Shown: positions 19,116 to 61,215 of the stretch, in pieces
How positions within the stretch are numbered: position 1 is the stretch's first letter
Layout: every line of letters starts with the position of its first letter
Assembly: GCF_016025255.1 (NCBI RefSeq)
Contig: NZ_CP065592.1
Span: 1,469,122-1,533,121 of the forward strand
DNA: 64,000 nucleotides
Direction: 5' to 3'
DNA from: Sphingosinicella flava
GTDB taxonomy: Bacteria > Pseudomonadota > Alphaproteobacteria > Sphingomonadales > Sphingomonadaceae
Program-made: the position numbers and the translations under genes
The notes under the pieces: generated by a model
Database searches by the model: none
The model's input: only the letters and a program-made list of their open reading frames with translations
Told to the model about the DNA's origin: nothing

Positions 19116-20567
19116 CTAGGAAAGCGCCTTCACCCGCTCCCCGATCCGCGCCAAATCCTCCACGAACCGCTGATATTCCGCCTCCCGATTGTCGCGCACG
19201 CGCAGCAGGAAGCTGGGATGCACCGTCACCCACGCCTCCCCGCCTTCCGCCAGCTTATGCGCCTCCCCGCGCAAGCTGGAGATGGTGACGGCACGCCCGA
19301 ACACTTGCCGGGCGGCGGTGGCGCCGAGCGCGACCGTCACTTGCGGGCGGATCAGCGCGCGCTCCCGGTCGTACCAATAATGACACGCCTTGATCTCGTC
19401 CGCCTTGGGCGTCTGGTGGATGCGGCGGGTGCCGCGCGGCTCGAACTTGAAATGCTTGACCGCGTTGGTGATGTAGGCCTTGGCGCGGTTGATCCCCGCT
19501 TCCTTCAGCGCCTTGTCGAACAGCTGGCCCGCCGGGCCGACGAAGGCCCGCCCGGCCAGATCCTCCTGATCGCCCGGCTGCTCGCCGACGAACATGAGCG
19601 GCGCGTCGACCGGCCCCTCGCCGAACACCGTCTGCGTCGCATGCTTGTAGAGGTGGCAGCGCGTGCAGCCCCGCGCCTCCTCGAACAAGGCCTCCCACGC
19701 CGCCAGCGCGTTGCCGCCCGGCTGCAGCCGCCGCTCCGCCGCTTCGGCGGCATCGTGCCCTGCCTCCCGCACCTCCGCCGCGACCTTGCTCCGCGACCGT
19801 GCGACCATCTCCGCCTCCCGCGCCTGCGCGCCTGCGATCAAGTCCCCGACCAACGCCGTCTCCGGCATGTTTTTCCAATATTTCTTCGGCATCTCCTTGG
19901 TCATGGCTTTGACCTTCACCCGCGCCGGATTGAAGATGGACGCGTAATAGGTCTTCCACGTCTCCTCGACCGGATCGCCGGACGGCGCGTCGGCCCTCGT
20001 CGCGCCGGGGCTTTGCGTCAGCGTCTCGCCGTCCCAATGAATCGACAATTCGGGCGTCAGGATCGACCAGCGCATCGTGGTGAAGCGCCGCACGAAGAAG
20101 CCCGCATTTGACCGCACGATATGATGATCGGGCTCGAACCAGGCGACATAGCGGGTGCCCCCGTCCGGCTCGTCCACTTCGCGGAAGCGGACGAAGGCGT
20201 GCATCTTGTGCATGTCCCGCCGCACCGATTTCGCCATCTCCTCCAGCCGCCGCAGCAGCGGATCGGCCTTGTCCCCCAGCACGCCCGGCCGCGCGCGCAG
20301 CCGCAGCAGCATCGCGTAGAGCAGGGAGAAACGCTCCGGCTCGGAATGGCAGATGACGGTCCGCGCCAGGTCGACGAACGGCCGGGGCACCGAAAAGGCC
20401 GGGCCTTCCACTGCGGGCATCACCGCTTCCTCGCCGAACAGGTCGGGCGGCGCGTCGCCGACGCTCCACGTCACTTCGGACGGCGGCACCCGGGCGAGGG
20501 CGAGGCTGCGGGCGGCATCCCGCCAGCCGTCGAAATCCTCCTCATGGGCGAGCGTTACGGCGCGCAT
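19116..20567 (-). CDS. udgX: DUF4130-UdgX fusion, uracil-DNA-binding/glycosylase
   Basis: A 483-residue two-domain protein. The N-terminal half (about 1-240) matches the DUF4130 'radical SAM-linked' domain: FRFREVDEPDGG-like core, AWFEPDHHIV and FVRRF. The C-terminal half is a UdgX-type uracil-DNA glycosylase with Fe-S cysteines (CTRC near 300 and KAC at 395), GEQPGDQEDLAG from 328, the RRIHQTP motif whose His384 is the residue known in UdgX to form a covalent bond with uracil-DNA, and VHPS at 449-452. UdgX binds and traps uracil in DNA. Its known family partner, the radical SAM protein, is two genes upstream on the same strand. Confidence 0.9.
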   Translation of the reverse strand: MRAVTLAHEEDFDGWRDAARSLALARVPPSEVTWSVGDAPPDLFGEEAVMPAVEGPAFSVPRPFVDLARTVICHSEPERFSLLYAMLLRLRARPGVLGDKADPLLRRLEEMAKSVRRDMHKMHAFVRFREVDEPDGGTRYVAWFEPDHHIVRSNAGFFVRRFTTMRWSILTPELSIHWDGETLTQSPGATRADAPSGDPVEETWKTYYASIFNPARVKVKAMTKEMPKKYWKNMPETALVGDLIAGAQAREAEMVARSRSKVAAEVREAGHDAAEAAERRLQPGGNALAAWEALFEEARGCTRCHLYKHATQTVFGEGPVDAPLMFVGEQPGDQEDLAGRAFVGPAGQLFDKALKEAGINRAKAYITNAVKHFKFEPRGTRRIHQTPKADEIKACHYWYDRERALIRPQVTVALGATAARQVFGRAVTISSLRGEAHKLAEGGEAWVTVHPSFLLRVRDNREAEYQRFVEDLARIGERVKALS

Positions 20568-20639
20568 GAAGGTTGAAGCCGCAAAGCGCGCCGCCGTTCC
20601 CTGAAGGGCGGCGGCGCCCCGAAACCGGAATCGCCGGGA

Positions 20640-21479
20640 TCAGAAGGGATTGACGTTTTCGACCAGGACCATCCAGCCTTGCGGACGCCGCTGCCAGACG
20701 CGGAGATAGGGCCCGGTCTTCGCCGCGCCATTTTCCGACCAGCTCGCAATGCCGTAGGTATAGCCAAGGTCGCCCGCCGCGGACACGCCGCCGCCTTCCA
20801 TGCTGGTTTTGAGGTCGCGCGCCCGGCCCGCGAGAACGGGAAGCGCCGCCTGAATGCCATCGACCGGCTCCGGCCTGTAGCCGAGCAGCCGGATTTCGGG
20901 GGCATAATAAGTGGCGGTGCCGGGATGGACGGCGAACGCCCGGCCGAGATTGCCGTCCGTCTTCTGAAGGTCGCTCCACGCGGCGCCCGCTTCCATCGGG
21001 GGCAGGGTCGATACCGGCACGGCCGCGACATTTTGCGTCGGCGCCACCGCGGCCGGACGCGGCCCGGTCCCCTGGTCGATGACCCACTTCCAGCTGCCGT
21101 CCGGCTGCTTCTTCCAGACCGTGAAATAATCGCTGTAACGCTTGCCGCCGAAGGATGCGGGTCCGGTGGTAAAGCCCAGATCGCCGGATTGGGCGATGCC
21201 GGCCAGCGTCGGCCACCATTGGATGAAGCCGGGATTGTTGGCGTCCGGCCAAGTGGCGATGAAATCCTTGACGTTCTTCACGCCATCCCGCGTCACCGCG
21301 ACGCCGTCGGCGGCGGAAAATTCCTGAAACGCCTGCTTCATCGGCACTTCTTGATGCCGCGCGGCGAACGCGCGCTCGGCGGCAACCACCGGGTCCGCCG
21401 TCACCGGGTCCGCCGTGGCGGGCGCCCCCAGCGCGAGCGCGGCAACCGCGCCCAAGGTCCATAAACGCATATTCCCCAT
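20640..21479 (-). CDS. Secreted protein with two DUF4440/NTF2-like repeats
   Basis: A 279-residue protein with a Sec signal peptide (LWTLGAVAALALGAPATADP). Two tandem domains follow, each ending in a similar strand set (SGDLGFTTGPASFGG..YFTVWKKQPDGSWKWV and AGDLGYTYGIASWSENG..YLRVWQRRPQGWMVLVE), the pattern of DUF4440/SnoaL-like NTF2 folds. The ATG at 21479 has GGAGAG seven bases upstream. It sits between the radical SAM and UdgX genes on the same strand (gaps of 51 and 72 bases) but is predicted to be exported, so a repair role is doubtful. The ligand is unknown. Confidence 0.8.
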   Translation of the reverse strand: MGNMRLWTLGAVAALALGAPATADPVTADPVVAAERAFAARHQEVPMKQAFQEFSAADGVAVTRDGVKNVKDFIATWPDANNPGFIQWWPTLAGIAQSGDLGFTTGPASFGGKRYSDYFTVWKKQPDGSWKWVIDQGTGPRPAAVAPTQNVAAVPVSTLPPMEAGAAWSDLQKTDGNLGRAFAVHPGTATYYAPEIRLLGYRPEPVDGIQAALPVLAGRARDLKTSMEGGGVSAAGDLGYTYGIASWSENGAAKTGPYLRVWQRRPQGWMVLVENVNPF

Positions 21480-21530
21480 CGTCACACTCTCCCCGGCGCA
21501 TCTCGCCCCGACGCGGCTTTTAGCCCCAAA

Positions 21531-22775
21531 TTACGCCGCAAACAATTCCAGCTGCTCTTTCTTCGGCTTCACGCGCTGCGCCAGATCGGCGCGGTCGATC
21601 AGCGCCGTGGGGCGCCACCCTTCCGCAACGATGAACGGCCTTATCTTGGCCACCGATATCGTGAGGCGCCCGACATCGTCGAGCGTCAGCCTGCGCCAGC
21701 GCCGCGACGCGACGATGCGGTCCACCGCCTTCACCCCCAGCCCCGGCACGCGCAGCAGCATTTCGCGCGGCGCGCGATTGACGTCGACCGGAAAATGCTC
21801 CCGGAATTTGAGCGCCCAGGCGAGCTTCGGATCGATGTCGAGCGGCAGCATGCCCGCCGCGTCCGTCGCCGCCATCACCTCCCCCGGCTGGAACCCGTAA
21901 AAGCGCATCAGCCAGTCCGACTGATACAGCCGGTGCTCGCGCATCAGCGGCGGCCGCTGAAGCGGCAGCACCGCGCTCGCATCCGGGATCGGGCTGAACG
22001 CGGAATAATAGACCCGCCGCAGGTTGAACCGCCCGTAAAGGCGGCTCGCTTTCCGGATGATCGCGCCGTCGTCCGCATCGTCCGCGCCGACGATCATCTG
22101 CGTCGATTGACCGGCGGGCGCGAAGCTCGGCGCGGATTTGTACCGCGCCTTGGCGTCCTTGCCGTCCGCGATCGCCGCCTTCATCCCGGTCATCGCGCCC
22201 TCGATCCGCGCGCCGTCCTTTTCCGGTGCGAGCCGCTTGAGGCCCTTTTCGGTCGGCAGCTCGACGTTGATCGACACCCGGTCGGCATAGAGCCCGGCCT
22301 TATGGATCAATTCCGGATCGGCGTCCGGGATCGTCTTCAAATGGATGTAACCGCGAAAATCGTGATCCTCGCGCAAGGATCGCGCCACCTCCACGATCTG
22401 CTCCATCGTGTAGTTGGACGATCCGATGATGCCGGAGGACAGGAACAGCCCCTCGATATAATTGCGCTTGTAGAAAGCGAGGGTGAGGTCGACCACCTCC
22501 CGCGCCGTGAACCGCGCCCGCCGCACGTTGGAGCTCTTGCGGTTGATGCAATAATGACAGTCGAAGATGCAGCTGTTGGTCAGCAAGATCTTGAGCAGCG
22601 AAATGCACCGCCCGTCCGGCGCATAGGCATGGCAGATGCCCATCCCTTCCGTCGACCCGATCCCCTTGCCGCCGCTGCTGTCCCGTTTCTTCGTCCCCGA
22701 CGACGCGCAACTCGCATCATATTTCGCCGCATCGGCCAGGATCGCGAGTTTCTGCCGTGTATCGAGCTGCGCCAT
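21531..22775 (-). CDS. Radical SAM protein of the UdgX-linked DNA repair family
   Basis: A 414-residue radical SAM enzyme with the cluster motif C69-x3-C73-x2-C76 (CIFDCHYC). It matches the family described as 'putative DNA modification/repair radical SAM protein' that co-occurs with DUF4130/UdgX proteins (TIGR03916 group). The C-terminal part has a helix-hairpin-helix (LLRVPGLGVKAVDRIVASRRWRR, about 325-350) suited to DNA binding. A perfect alphaproteobacterial SOS box lies three bases upstream of the start. With UdgX downstream this points to a damage-inducible repair function; the reaction is not known. Confidence 0.9.
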   Translation of the reverse strand: MAQLDTRQKLAILADAAKYDASCASSGTKKRDSSGGKGIGSTEGMGICHAYAPDGRCISLLKILLTNSCIFDCHYCINRKSSNVRRARFTAREVVDLTLAFYKRNYIEGLFLSSGIIGSSNYTMEQIVEVARSLREDHDFRGYIHLKTIPDADPELIHKAGLYADRVSINVELPTEKGLKRLAPEKDGARIEGAMTGMKAAIADGKDAKARYKSAPSFAPAGQSTQMIVGADDADDGAIIRKASRLYGRFNLRRVYYSAFSPIPDASAVLPLQRPPLMREHRLYQSDWLMRFYGFQPGEVMAATDAAGMLPLDIDPKLAWALKFREHFPVDVNRAPREMLLRVPGLGVKAVDRIVASRRWRRLTLDDVGRLTISVAKIRPFIVAEGWRPTALIDRADLAQRVKPKKEQLELFAA

Positions 22776-22777
22776 AT

Positions 22778-22792
22778 GTTCGATATATGTTC
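22778..22792 (-). promoter_or_regulatory. LexA (SOS) box, GTTC-N7-GTTC
   Basis: GTTCGATATATGTTC matches exactly the alphaproteobacterial LexA operator GTTC-N7-GTTC (GAAC-N7-GAAC on the other strand). It lies immediately before the radical SAM start codon and 87-101 bases before the divergent small zinc-ribbon-like gene, so it may control both directions. Confidence 0.82.
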
Positions 22793-22878
22793 TACTTTTC
22801 TTTCTGTCCAGATTAAGCGGCGCTTGCTCCCCCTCACCGTCGGTTGCGGAGGCGGAGGGCGGCGTTTATGACGCTTAT

Positions 22879-23166
22879 ATGGCGGATGACTGGCGATTGG
22901 TGCATTTGAAGGAGCAGCCTTTCCTGCAAGGCCAGAGCTTCATCCGCAAATCCTACAAGGCGTACCGTCCCGGATGGGAGCATGATCATTGCGCGGCGTG
23001 TTGGGCGACCATTGCCGAGCCGGGCCAGTCGGATGAGGCGGCCTGTCATGAGGGCTACGCCACCACGGCGGATTATGTGCGCGGCGCCGATTACGAGTGG
23101 GTTTGCGTGCCATGTTTCGACGAATTCAAGGCCGTCATGGCATGGAAGGATGTGCCGGCAGGTTGA
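22879..23166 (+). CDS. Small protein with two CxxC motifs
   Basis: A 95-residue protein with CAAC (in EHDHCAACWATI) and CVPC (in YEWVCVPCFDEFK), spaced about 45 residues apart, suggesting a zinc ribbon. The N-terminus (DDWRLVHLKEQPFLQGQSF) has no known domain. It is divergent from the radical SAM gene across the SOS box, and 17 bases upstream of the next gene, so it may be co-expressed with it. The function is unknown. Confidence 0.7.
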   Translation: MADDWRLVHLKEQPFLQGQSFIRKSYKAYRPGWEHDHCAACWATIAEPGQSDEAACHEGYATTADYVRGADYEWVCVPCFDEFKAVMAWKDVPAG

Positions 23167-29320: not shown

Positions 29321-29335
29321 GAACAAATCTGGAAC
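29321..29335 (+). promoter_or_regulatory. LexA (SOS) box upstream of uvrA
   Basis: GAACAAATCTGGAAC is an exact GAAC-N7-GAAC match to the alphaproteobacterial LexA operator, 11-25 bases before the uvrA start codon. uvrA is a known SOS gene, which supports the call. Confidence 0.88.
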
Positions 29336-29345
29336 AGCCAATCTC

Positions 29346-32477
<3,132 letters not shown>

Positions 32478-59755: not shown

Positions 59756-61131
59756 TTCGGTTCTCCTTTGCCAGCAGTCAGGGTGCCGGCATTGATCAAG
59801 CGGACGTAGAGCGGGATGGGCAAAGCGGTGCCGTTGGACAGGCGCCGCTGCTGCCAGGCCCAGCTTCCAAAAAAGACGGCGAGAAGGAGCAGAAGGGCCC
59901 AATCGGGCATCAGGGGCGGTGCATCGGAACCGGCTGCGGCTCGGGAAAGCGTCAGCCCCAGGGTGTGAAAAATGATGAGAACCGCCAATCCCGCGATCAG
60001 CGGCAGCTTGCCTCTTGCAGCGGATCTGCCGCCGAGAAAGGCGATCAGCGTCACCAGCGCCGTCGCAATGCCGAGGAGTAAAGGCATCAGGCTTGCGCCG
60101 CCCTGGCCGGACCCGACCAGAAGGACGGCAGCAGCAAGCGTTCCCGTCATGGTCAGCAATGCCGACCGGTTGGAGACGGGCGTCACCGCACCGCCGGACT
60201 TGATGCCGACCCCCGAGCCTGAGCCGAGAAAGAGCGCGGCTTTGAACAGGCCGTGGGCAATGATGTGCCAGAGCGCTGCCGCATAGGCGCCAAGCCCGCA
60301 GCTCATGATCATGAAACCCATCTGGGAAATGGTGGAACCGGCCAGCGCGCGCTTCACATCGGGCCGTACCATCATGATGCCCGCGCCGTAGAGTGCCGCG
60401 CCCAACCCAGCAGCGACGGCCACCGCACGGGCAGCGGGAGCGGCTTCCAGGATGGGAGCAAAGCGGATCAGCAGAAATCCCCCGGCGTTGACGAGGCCTG
60501 CATGCATGAGGGCCGAGACCGGTGTCGGCGCAGCCATGGAGGAGAGCAGCCAGCCGGAGAAAGGGGGCAGCGCGCAACGGACGGCCGCAGCAGCGACAAG
60601 CAGCATAGCCGCCGCACCTGTTAGCGAAGCAGGCATCGCCGATGCTGCAACGAGTACCGCTTCAATATCTGGAGAACCGGCCCACAGGGCGAGAATGCCG
60701 AGCCCTGCGAGCAAGGCCGCATCGCCCGCCATGAAGGTCATCCTCATGCGGCGCTCGGACATCCGCGCTTCGTTCCAGCCGGAACGGTGGCCGACCAAAG
60801 CGGCGAGCAACTGGCCGCTGGCGCACCAGCCAACGGCCATGACAATTAGATTTCCGGTGAAGAGAAAGACCAATATGCTGGCGGTCAGCAGGCCGAATAA
60901 CGCAAAGAAGCGAGCGGATCGCCGATCCGCTCGCATGTAGTGCAGTGAAAAGGTCGCGACCACTGCAGCCACGAAAAGCGTCAAAATCGCCATGGCGGAC
61001 GACAGGTCCAACCGGGGAGCGGACGCATGCTGCACTCCTGCCCATAACGCGGATAGGCCAAGGCCAAGCCACAGAAGAAGAGCGATCGGCGCGCCTGGCG
61101 CGGTGGATAGCTTTACTTTTGAGAACTGCAT
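59752..61131 (-). CDS. dabB: DabB, proton-conducting membrane subunit of the DAB system
   Basis: A 459-residue membrane protein of about 13 helices in the NuoL/MrpA-like proton-conducting family (PF00361), with SSMAAPTPVSALMHAGLVNAGGF and KRALAGSTISQMGFM typical of antiporter subunits. In DAB systems DabB couples an ion gradient to DabA. The AAAGGGG site precedes ATG 61131. First gene of the operon, divergent from the LysR gene by 84 bases. Confidence 0.93.
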   Translation of the reverse strand: MQFSKVKLSTAPGAPIALLLWLGLGLSALWAGVQHASAPRLDLSSAMAILTLFVAAVVATFSLHYMRADRRSARFFALFGLLTASILVFLFTGNLIVMAVGWCASGQLLAALVGHRSGWNEARMSERRMRMTFMAGDAALLAGLGILALWAGSPDIEAVLVAASAMPASLTGAAAMLLVAAAAVRCALPPFSGWLLSSMAAPTPVSALMHAGLVNAGGFLLIRFAPILEAAPAARAVAVAAGLGAALYGAGIMMVRPDVKRALAGSTISQMGFMIMSCGLGAYAAALWHIIAHGLFKAALFLGSGSGVGIKSGGAVTPVSNRSALLTMTGTLAAAVLLVGSGQGGASLMPLLLGIATALVTLIAFLGGRSAARGKLPLIAGLAVLIIFHTLGLTLSRAAAGSDAPPLMPDWALLLLLAVFFGSWAWQQRRLSNGTALPIPLYVRLINAGTLTAGKGEPK

Positions 61132-61215
61132 GAGAACCCCTTTCGAGAGGGCCTATGAAGCTTGGGATACTATTACGAAAACGAGTTGTTGAAATATCAA
61201 TCATTGACAAGGCAA
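61132..61215. promoter_or_regulatory. Divergent promoter/operator region of dabB and the LysR gene
   Basis: The 84-base region is AT-richer than its surroundings and contains the palindrome TTGA-AATA-TCAA (61189-61200), a plausible half of a LysR-type site (T-N11-A). Candidate -10 TAATAG/TAGTAT for dabB lies at about 61168-61176 on the minus strand. This is the usual layout for LysR control of a divergent operon. Confidence 0.45.

Follow-up and report, generated by a model that had tools for sequence, protein, structure and literature searches.

Positions 1469122–1533121 of the single 2.42 Mb contig of the Sphingosinicella flava genome (this 64,000-nucleotide stretch is termed the window) carry three genes that follow one another on the minus strand. 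The first to be transcribed encodes a radical S-adenosylmethionine (SAM) protein, the second a DUF4440 protein, and the third a fusion of DUF4130 with a UdgX type uracil-DNA glycosylase (UDG) domain. The gaps between the genes are 45 nucleotides (nt) and 72 nt. A LexA-type operator is located at the start of the radical SAM gene, and a divergent open reading frame begins on the other side of it (Table 1).

The radical SAM protein scores 570.6 bits against the NCBIfam model TIGR03916 (cut-off 343.5), which is its only NCBIfam match at E 0.001, and displays the CxxxCxxC motif, where C69, C73 and C76 are invariant in the aligned proteins. The closest named relative in the genome collection is the Sphingomonas palmae protein (86% identity). 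The fusion protein is above the cut-offs of both TIGR03915 (220.3 vs. 112.25 bits) and TIGR03914 (308.8 vs. 189.95 bits). All three models of the TIGR03916/TIGR03915/TIGR03914 set are matched and the partners co-occur, and the locus is a typical member of the set. The original prediction, made from the sequence alone, had named both genes, the RRIH motif of the fusion and its place two genes downstream on the same strand, and in these points it is borne out.

A perfect GTTC-N7-GTTC box, GTTCGATATATGTTC, was also predicted and is present. It is separated by 2 nt from the ATG of the radical SAM gene (22775–22773), where the prediction had placed it three bases away. GTTC-N7-GTTC is stated to be the alphaproteobacterial LexA consensus (PMC8565304), and this pattern is matched exactly at the radical SAM promoter.

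In the genome as a whole the bare 4+4 core is not enriched; there are 52 sites and 52 sites for the reversed control, a point in favor of the box being a chance match or a functionless relic. The three core matches in the window are unremarkable, as 17 of 100 shuffles have at least three. The form with an AT-rich spacer, GTTCNNNWTWTGTTC, which was defined after the sites were inspected, is fitted by the radical SAM box and has 10 sites in the genome compared with none for the reversed control. Only some of these ten sites are tied to a gene. Strong boxes elsewhere in the genome are found at uvrA, at a Y-family-polymerase-like gene divergent from recJ, at a PA0069-family radical SAM gene, at a DNA-glycosylase-like gene and at an S24-type regulator; the PA0069-family match is above its cut-off, those of the polymerase, the glycosylase and the regulator fall short of the curated cut-offs, and uvrA was scored on a cut piece. 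The lexA gene (above cut-off) has a core box with a different spacer.

Conservation of the box upstream of orthologues had been set beforehand as the test, and was analyzed in 171 loci consisting of 82 loci of the same family, nine loci from other families of the class and 80 named loci. The family loci represent the 81 genomes, out of 119 in the family, with a radical SAM gene above the cut-off, plus one truncated gene. The class sample has 12 of 240 genomes above the cut-off, of which nine were new and used and three were already-counted family genomes (L121 and L124 repeat L083 and L095). The named loci are the best 80 of 585 relatives and include one betaproteobacterial locus. Loci L131–L140 are below the cut-off and were excluded.

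The exact box is present in 80 of the 82 family loci, compared with 1/82 for the reversed-pattern control, and the two other family loci display a box with one mismatch at the same place. It is also present in 8/9 of the other loci of the class and 76/80 named loci. This gives 164 of 171 mostly alphaproteobacterial loci, and in 162 of these the box ends between positions −30 and +5 relative to the aligned start. The outcome that was to refute the prediction, a box not kept in orthologues, is clearly not what is observed. The background is 191 of 4808 windows of 230 nt over 162 family and named loci, with the true sites included in the count. Further alphaproteobacterial loci show the box in 24 of 24 cases, at least one of which is a repeat. 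Six of these 24 (L237–L240, L243 and L244) have a variant layout, in which the box stands 72–75 nt upstream of the aligned start and the tail of the protein reads QLGFGF.

Outside of the Alphaproteobacteria a different sequence is found at the same place. The exact pattern CTGT-N8-ACAG, which we take to be the E. coli-type LexA box, occurs in 16 of 20 non-alpha Pseudomonadota loci (20 taken from the 29 non-alpha genomes above the cut-off; −250 to +30 scanned) and ends between −31 and +10. Over the same 20 loci the background is 16 of 405 windows, true sites included. The difference in operator between proteobacterial classes presumably matches the known difference in LexA specificity. Of the individual arguments, the switch of operator from class to class carries the most weight. 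A chance match or relic has next to no probability, as both the place and the sequence of the box are kept in the family and a different box occupies its place in other classes; chance is rejected on the conservation across family, class and phylum loci. By comparison the operator is shown to be a conserved element of the radical SAM promoter, and SOS control of the radical SAM gene is well supported. Since SOS control is conserved in several proteobacterial classes by way of different operators, the genes would constitute a real damage-response module.

Table 1. Features of the radical SAM/DUF4130-UdgX locus; positions are those of the window.
Feature	Position	Strand	Evidence
Radical SAM protein, TIGR03916 type, 414 aa	21531–22775	−	NCBIfam and Pfam profile matches
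CxxxCxxC radical SAM cluster motif, residues 69–76	22548–22571	−	Alignment
Span of C23, C48 and C57, candidate second metal-cluster site	22605–22709	−	Alignment
Helix-hairpin-helix-like region, residues 329–358	21702–21791	−	PF12836, E 0.002, 18.6 bits, under the cut-off of 27
QLELF motif of sliding-clamp-binding type in the C-terminal tail, which is predicted to be disordered	21540–21554	−	Tail pattern; model confidence (pLDDT)
DUF4440 protein, probably exported (by eye)	20640–21485	−	PF14534
DUF4130-UdgX fusion, 483 aa	19116–20567	−	TIGR03915, TIGR03914
DUF4130 domain, residues 77–236	19860–20339	−	PF13566, E 1.3e-40
UdgX domain, residues 240–474	19146–19850	−	TIGR03914
RRIH loop with cross-linking histidine H384	19416–19427	−	Alignment
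LexA-type operator, coding strand GAACATATATCGAAC (GTTC-N7-GTTC on +)	22778–22792	−	Exact pattern
Predicted −10 element TATATC within the operator spacer (−12 to −7 when the A of the ATG is counted as +1)	22782–22787	−	Inferred from position and conservation
Predicted −35 element TGGACA, 17 nt from the −10 element	22805–22810	−	T.G[AC]C offset across aligned loci

The loci were aligned by the box where it is on the coding strand, which is the case in 76 of 82 family loci (it is absent there in six) and in 156 of 171 loci of the wider set (absent in 15). Within the spacer of the 76 family loci T-A-T-A is conserved; upstream there is another conserved block, C-T-n-G-n-C, whose first position is 19 nt from the box. 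The motif T.G[AC]C is found at the single offset that gives a 17-nt spacer in 49 of the 156 loci, and in seven or fewer at any other offset. The first in-frame start is exactly 2 nt past the box in 111/156 loci. In the window the sequence reads TGGACA-17-TATATC with the A of the ATG at +1. This arrangement suggests that the transcript is leaderless and that the −10 element of its promoter belongs to the LexA operator, and such a geometry would form a compact, leaderless switch inducible by damage.

The radical SAM and DUF4130 families occur together in 81 of the 119 family genomes and are both absent from 36; one genome has only the radical SAM gene (on a truncated contig) and one has only DUF4130. 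The claim that the fusion is a genuine family partner is therefore sustained. In the phylum sample the count is 84 of 398 genomes, so that some groups commonly have the radical SAM/DUF4130/UdgX set. In 160 of the 171 loci the examined stretch includes the partner, which starts within 60 nt of the radical SAM gene or overlaps it in 119.

There are six detached DUF4130-UdgX genes, five in genomes with a radical SAM gene and one in a genome without it. None of the six (0/6) has a box, even with one mismatch, between −300 and +40. DUF4130-UdgX is accordingly rejected as an independent SOS target. Since the detached genes have no box, the operator appears to serve the radical SAM gene, and UdgX to share it by way of the operon. 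The prediction of a damage-inducible repair set holds for the LexA-type box on the radical SAM gene; for UdgX it holds only within the operon.

A narrower alternative is that SOS control concerns the radical SAM gene alone, and that DUF4130-UdgX is mainly constitutive and rides in the operon, perhaps with a promoter of its own past the DUF4440 gene. The detached genes favor it, as does the finding that where more than 200 nt separate the two genes a box is within 150 nt upstream of UdgX in only one of 32 loci (a count that excludes L064, L108 and L118). The gaps of 45 and 72 nt and the foreign gene in between also point this way. On the other side are the co-occurrence of the families in 81/119 genomes and the close or overlapping partner in 119/171 loci, and a consensus scan for promoters and terminators, which is a weak test, listed none in the gaps between the genes of the window. 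In the same weak test one terminator-like match is inside the radical SAM gene, which is fewer than chance gives. The alternative is considered unlikely, although of those discussed here it is the one with the largest share of probability.

The gene between the two repair genes is not a conserved operon member. The original prediction of an exported DUF4440 protein at this location is upheld for location and family (PF14534), with the signal peptide recognized by eye only, but the gene was matched in only two of the 171 loci, its own and L082 of the same genus, and DUF4440 is rejected as a member of the conserved operon. In 15 of the 171 loci the slot is instead taken by a hemerythrin-like gene in the same orientation (L061, L068, L072, L092, L095, L144–L147, L150, L152, L153, L164, L167 and L184); three were tested and match PF01814. 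The hemerythrin-like gene could protect or repair iron-sulfur (Fe-S) clusters. The slot between the two repair genes is a variable one.

The divergent open reading frame with two CxxC motifs exists as predicted, with its ATG at 22879 (some of the comparisons took the start at 22873, which adds two residues). It was detected in one of 60 relative genomes, its own, and at one of 171 loci, again its own, where the lengths of the stretches compared differ. The protein is rejected as a partner under the same operator, and the shared operator of the prediction is without comparative support. The earlier interpretation of the locus is right in its core and too wide in membership.

The UdgX half of the fusion displays motif A, GEQPG, and the RRIH loop. 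H384 and R382 are invariant in 49 aligned proteins. Published UdgX motifs are GEQPG (motif A), HPS(S/A)(L/V)(L/V)R (motif B) and KRRIH (R-loop) (PMC10359453). Motif B of the fusion reads HPSFLLR, one position off the published form, and the consensus of the 49 relatives is HPSYLLR. The solved Mycobacterium smegmatis UdgX (6ail, 6ajo, 6iod and 6l6s) has identical GEQPG and RRIH sequences and shows 46%–48% identity over the domain (47% to 6l6s) with a root mean square deviation of 1.1–1.6 Å. Unlike that protein, the UdgX sequence here is fused behind DUF4130, and has the loop TRRIH instead of KRRIH in addition to the motif B difference.

PDB sequence matches to the fusion are confined to its UDG half. 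The structural model has a mean confidence (predicted local distance difference test, pLDDT) of 88.9, is high over most of DUF4130 and is weak at approximately residues 200–290. The best 50 of 484 PDB fold matches comprise UDGs and proteins resembling them, together with a phage polymerase and a conserved protein. As the listed fold matches are almost all of the UDG type, they give nothing firm on the fold of DUF4130, and no fold was assigned to it from this source.

An alignment of 39 radical SAM proteins shows three further invariant cysteines, C23, C48 and C57. In a more diverse alignment of 31 rows, 30 have all of them and the exception, L268, has none. Their joint loss suggests that they form one site, plausibly a second (auxiliary) Fe-S cluster. 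L268, from a Gemmatirosa plasmid, is a divergent member with 36% identity that keeps both CxxxCxxC and a QLSLW motif; no DUF4130-UdgX match is present in the stretch examined around it.

The AlphaFold model of the radical SAM protein has a mean pLDDT of 83.7, with values below 50 in residues 23–45 and in the last eight residues. Its best 50 of 1212 PDB fold matches (E ≤ 10) are radical SAM enzymes of a general kind such as HydG, biotin synthase, PFL activase, HydE and MiaB, with TMq values of 0.33–0.43. No solved chain matched the protein by sequence at E < 0.26.

These properties bear on the possibility that the enzyme repairs thymine lesions as a spore photoproduct lyase (SplB) or as a close variant of one. 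DUF4130-linked radical SAM proteins are called SplB-like (PMC3765255), and an SplB under SOS regulation is described in another work (PMC8565304). The identity is nevertheless improbable. TIGR03916 is the sole NCBIfam family matched at E 0.001, the same genome has a separate boxed PA0069-family radical SAM gene, no spore photoproduct lyase is among the best 50 of 1212 fold matches, and the protein carries the three extra cysteines. SplB-like/PA0069-family proteins are likewise radical SAM proteins and share the box and tail features in part (see below), but they belong to a different family model.

The radical SAM protein ends in QLELF-AA, with the motif two residues from the C-terminal end in a region where pLDDT is below 50. 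QL[SD]LF is the canonical bacterial sliding-clamp motif, and the QLELF tail is presumably of that type. Among 167 complete orthologues, 146 carry the strict pattern Q[LM]xLF within their final 25 residues and 161 match a looser pattern; four of the 171 proteins are broken or cut and were excluded (L108, L118, L119 and L130). The six remaining tails show Q[LM]SLA[LIF] in five cases and, in L217, QADLF at a distance of 27 residues from the C-terminus. When tails are shuffled, the strict pattern is matched by 0.4 of them on average (maximum 2/167) and the looser pattern by 7.25 (maximum 16). The strict pattern is found in none of 2535 internal windows of 25 residues and in none of 604 other coding-like open reading frames at the 80 named loci; in the window it is present in one of 69, the radical SAM gene. 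Among non-alpha Pseudomonadota 20 of 20 tails display Q-x-x-L-[F/L/W/I] by eye, and Q408 is aligned in 31 of 31 diverse rows.

A similar tail is found on PA0069-family radical SAM proteins. In a sample of 30 (L272–L301, the best 30 of 51 genomes above the cut-off, where L281 has an internal stop) 15 end with the strict motif and 14 more show a variant by eye, and the GTTC-N7-GTTC SOS-type box is in the scanned region of 21 of the 30 loci. The boxed Y-family-like polymerase of the S. flava genome and the UdgX of the window have no such tail. A dnaN gene is present in the genome. The one literature search aimed at a clamp-binding motif together with radical SAM found no paper.

The tail might instead dock on the DUF4130-UdgX partner or close the enzyme's own active site. 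It is as widespread as the partnership, which would fit docking. The occurrence of the same type of tail in the PA0069 family (strict in 15/30) argues against binding to UdgX only; we know of no DUF4130-UdgX-like partner for these proteins. The predicted disorder of the tail and its variable distance from the end also speak against docking, which is held to be a doubtful explanation. If the tail binds the sliding clamp, the enzyme would act at replicating or gapped DNA.

Taken as a whole, the locus is probably best explained as a LexA-repressed DNA-repair operon. LexA on the box would cover the −10 element and the start point, so that the gene would be off until damage occurs. Upon damage RecA would trigger self-cleavage of LexA and the gene would be turned on, with a transcript that begins at or next to the A of the AUG. 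The sliding clamp may then bring the radical SAM protein, which has a helix-hairpin-helix-like region for contact with DNA and the QLxLF tail, to replicating or gapped DNA, where it would act on a lesion through radical chemistry that may involve a second Fe-S cluster. DUF4130-UdgX, encoded directly downstream in most loci, would remove uracil-like bases and covalently cap the abasic site by way of the RRIH histidine.

A more specific and tentative proposal, slightly more apt to fail than to hold, is that both TIGR03916 and PA0069/SplB-like enzymes are clamp clients that work at or behind the fork by means of the QLxLF tail, that the C23/C48/C57 cluster works with or undoes the UdgX cap, and that the promoter is a leaderless LexA-operator promoter. 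UdgX leaves protein covalently on DNA, and a dedicated partner that deals with the UdgX cap would answer an open question.

Several observations weigh against the explanation as a damage-inducible operon and against its parts, in addition to the unboxed detached genes. Seven of the 171 loci are without the exact box, and the loci are related so that the box counts are not independent events. Four of the 20 non-alpha loci, and all four loci on plasmid records (Bacteroidota, Bacillota, Gemmatimonadota and Acinetobacter), lack any of the three exact box types tried. The recA gene of S. flava has only a box with one mismatch within the 260 nt examined. The −35 motif is not at the expected offset in 107 of the 156 aligned loci, a Shine-Dalgarno-like tetramer precedes the start in 24 of 111 loci, and a generic promoter consensus scan, whose rule demands T at position 6 of the −10 element, did not list the proposed promoter. 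The PF12836 match is under its cut-off. The tail patterns were written after the tails had been inspected.

One other reading is that the two genes serve in DNA modification or in defense against phages and are linked to SOS by happenstance. The title of TIGR03916, "putative DNA modification/repair", would allow this, and the distribution is patchy (12/240 class genomes above the cut-off, with genomes of its own family included). The pair is kept in 81 of 119 family genomes and PADLOC gave no match for four proteins. An anti-phage system was rejected on the PADLOC result (0 hits, four proteins), and the reading as a whole is very improbable.

The SOS link of such genes is not new and is already in print. 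A link of DUF4130 with UDGs and with radical SAM proteins of the SplB-like kind has been described in the context of SOS (PMC3765255). SOS control is predicted for a COG1573-COG4277 operon in Bacteroidetes, and the same work cites SOS regulation of such a UDG-based system in Verrucomicrobia and Alphaproteobacteria (PMC8565304). The S. flava locus resembles the latter operon in having a UDG-family gene together with a COG4277 gene under predicted LexA control. It differs in that an alphaproteobacterial box is fused to a predicted −10 element and adjoins the start codon, DUF4130 is fused to UdgX and a DUF4440 gene is inserted. COG4277 presumably corresponds to TIGR03916. The available passages of PMC8565304 contain no promoter geometry, clamp-type tail or extra cysteines, and the literature search found no paper that joins "UdgX" with DUF4130, LexA or radical SAM. 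The proposed leaderless LexA-shut promoter and the QLxLF clamp-type tail both appear to be new, with no paper search aimed at the promoter geometry or at the extra cysteines. The present analysis adds the switch of operator across classes, the predicted leaderless geometry, a clamp-type tail common to both SOS-linked families of radical SAM proteins, and a candidate site formed by the three extra cysteines.

Other boxes were noted in the course of the analysis. A third core match in the window, GTTCTCATGCAGTTC at 61123–61137, overlaps the start of an open reading frame, does not have the AT-rich spacer and is probably due to chance. The DNA-glycosylase-like gene of the same genome (L033:1988–2797; NF053634, 107.6 bits, cut-off 400) adjoins a strong box. 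The second strong LexA-type box of the window, GTTCCAGATTTGTTC, is at positions 29321–29335 on the minus strand, 10 nt before the start of uvrA at 29346 on the plus strand.

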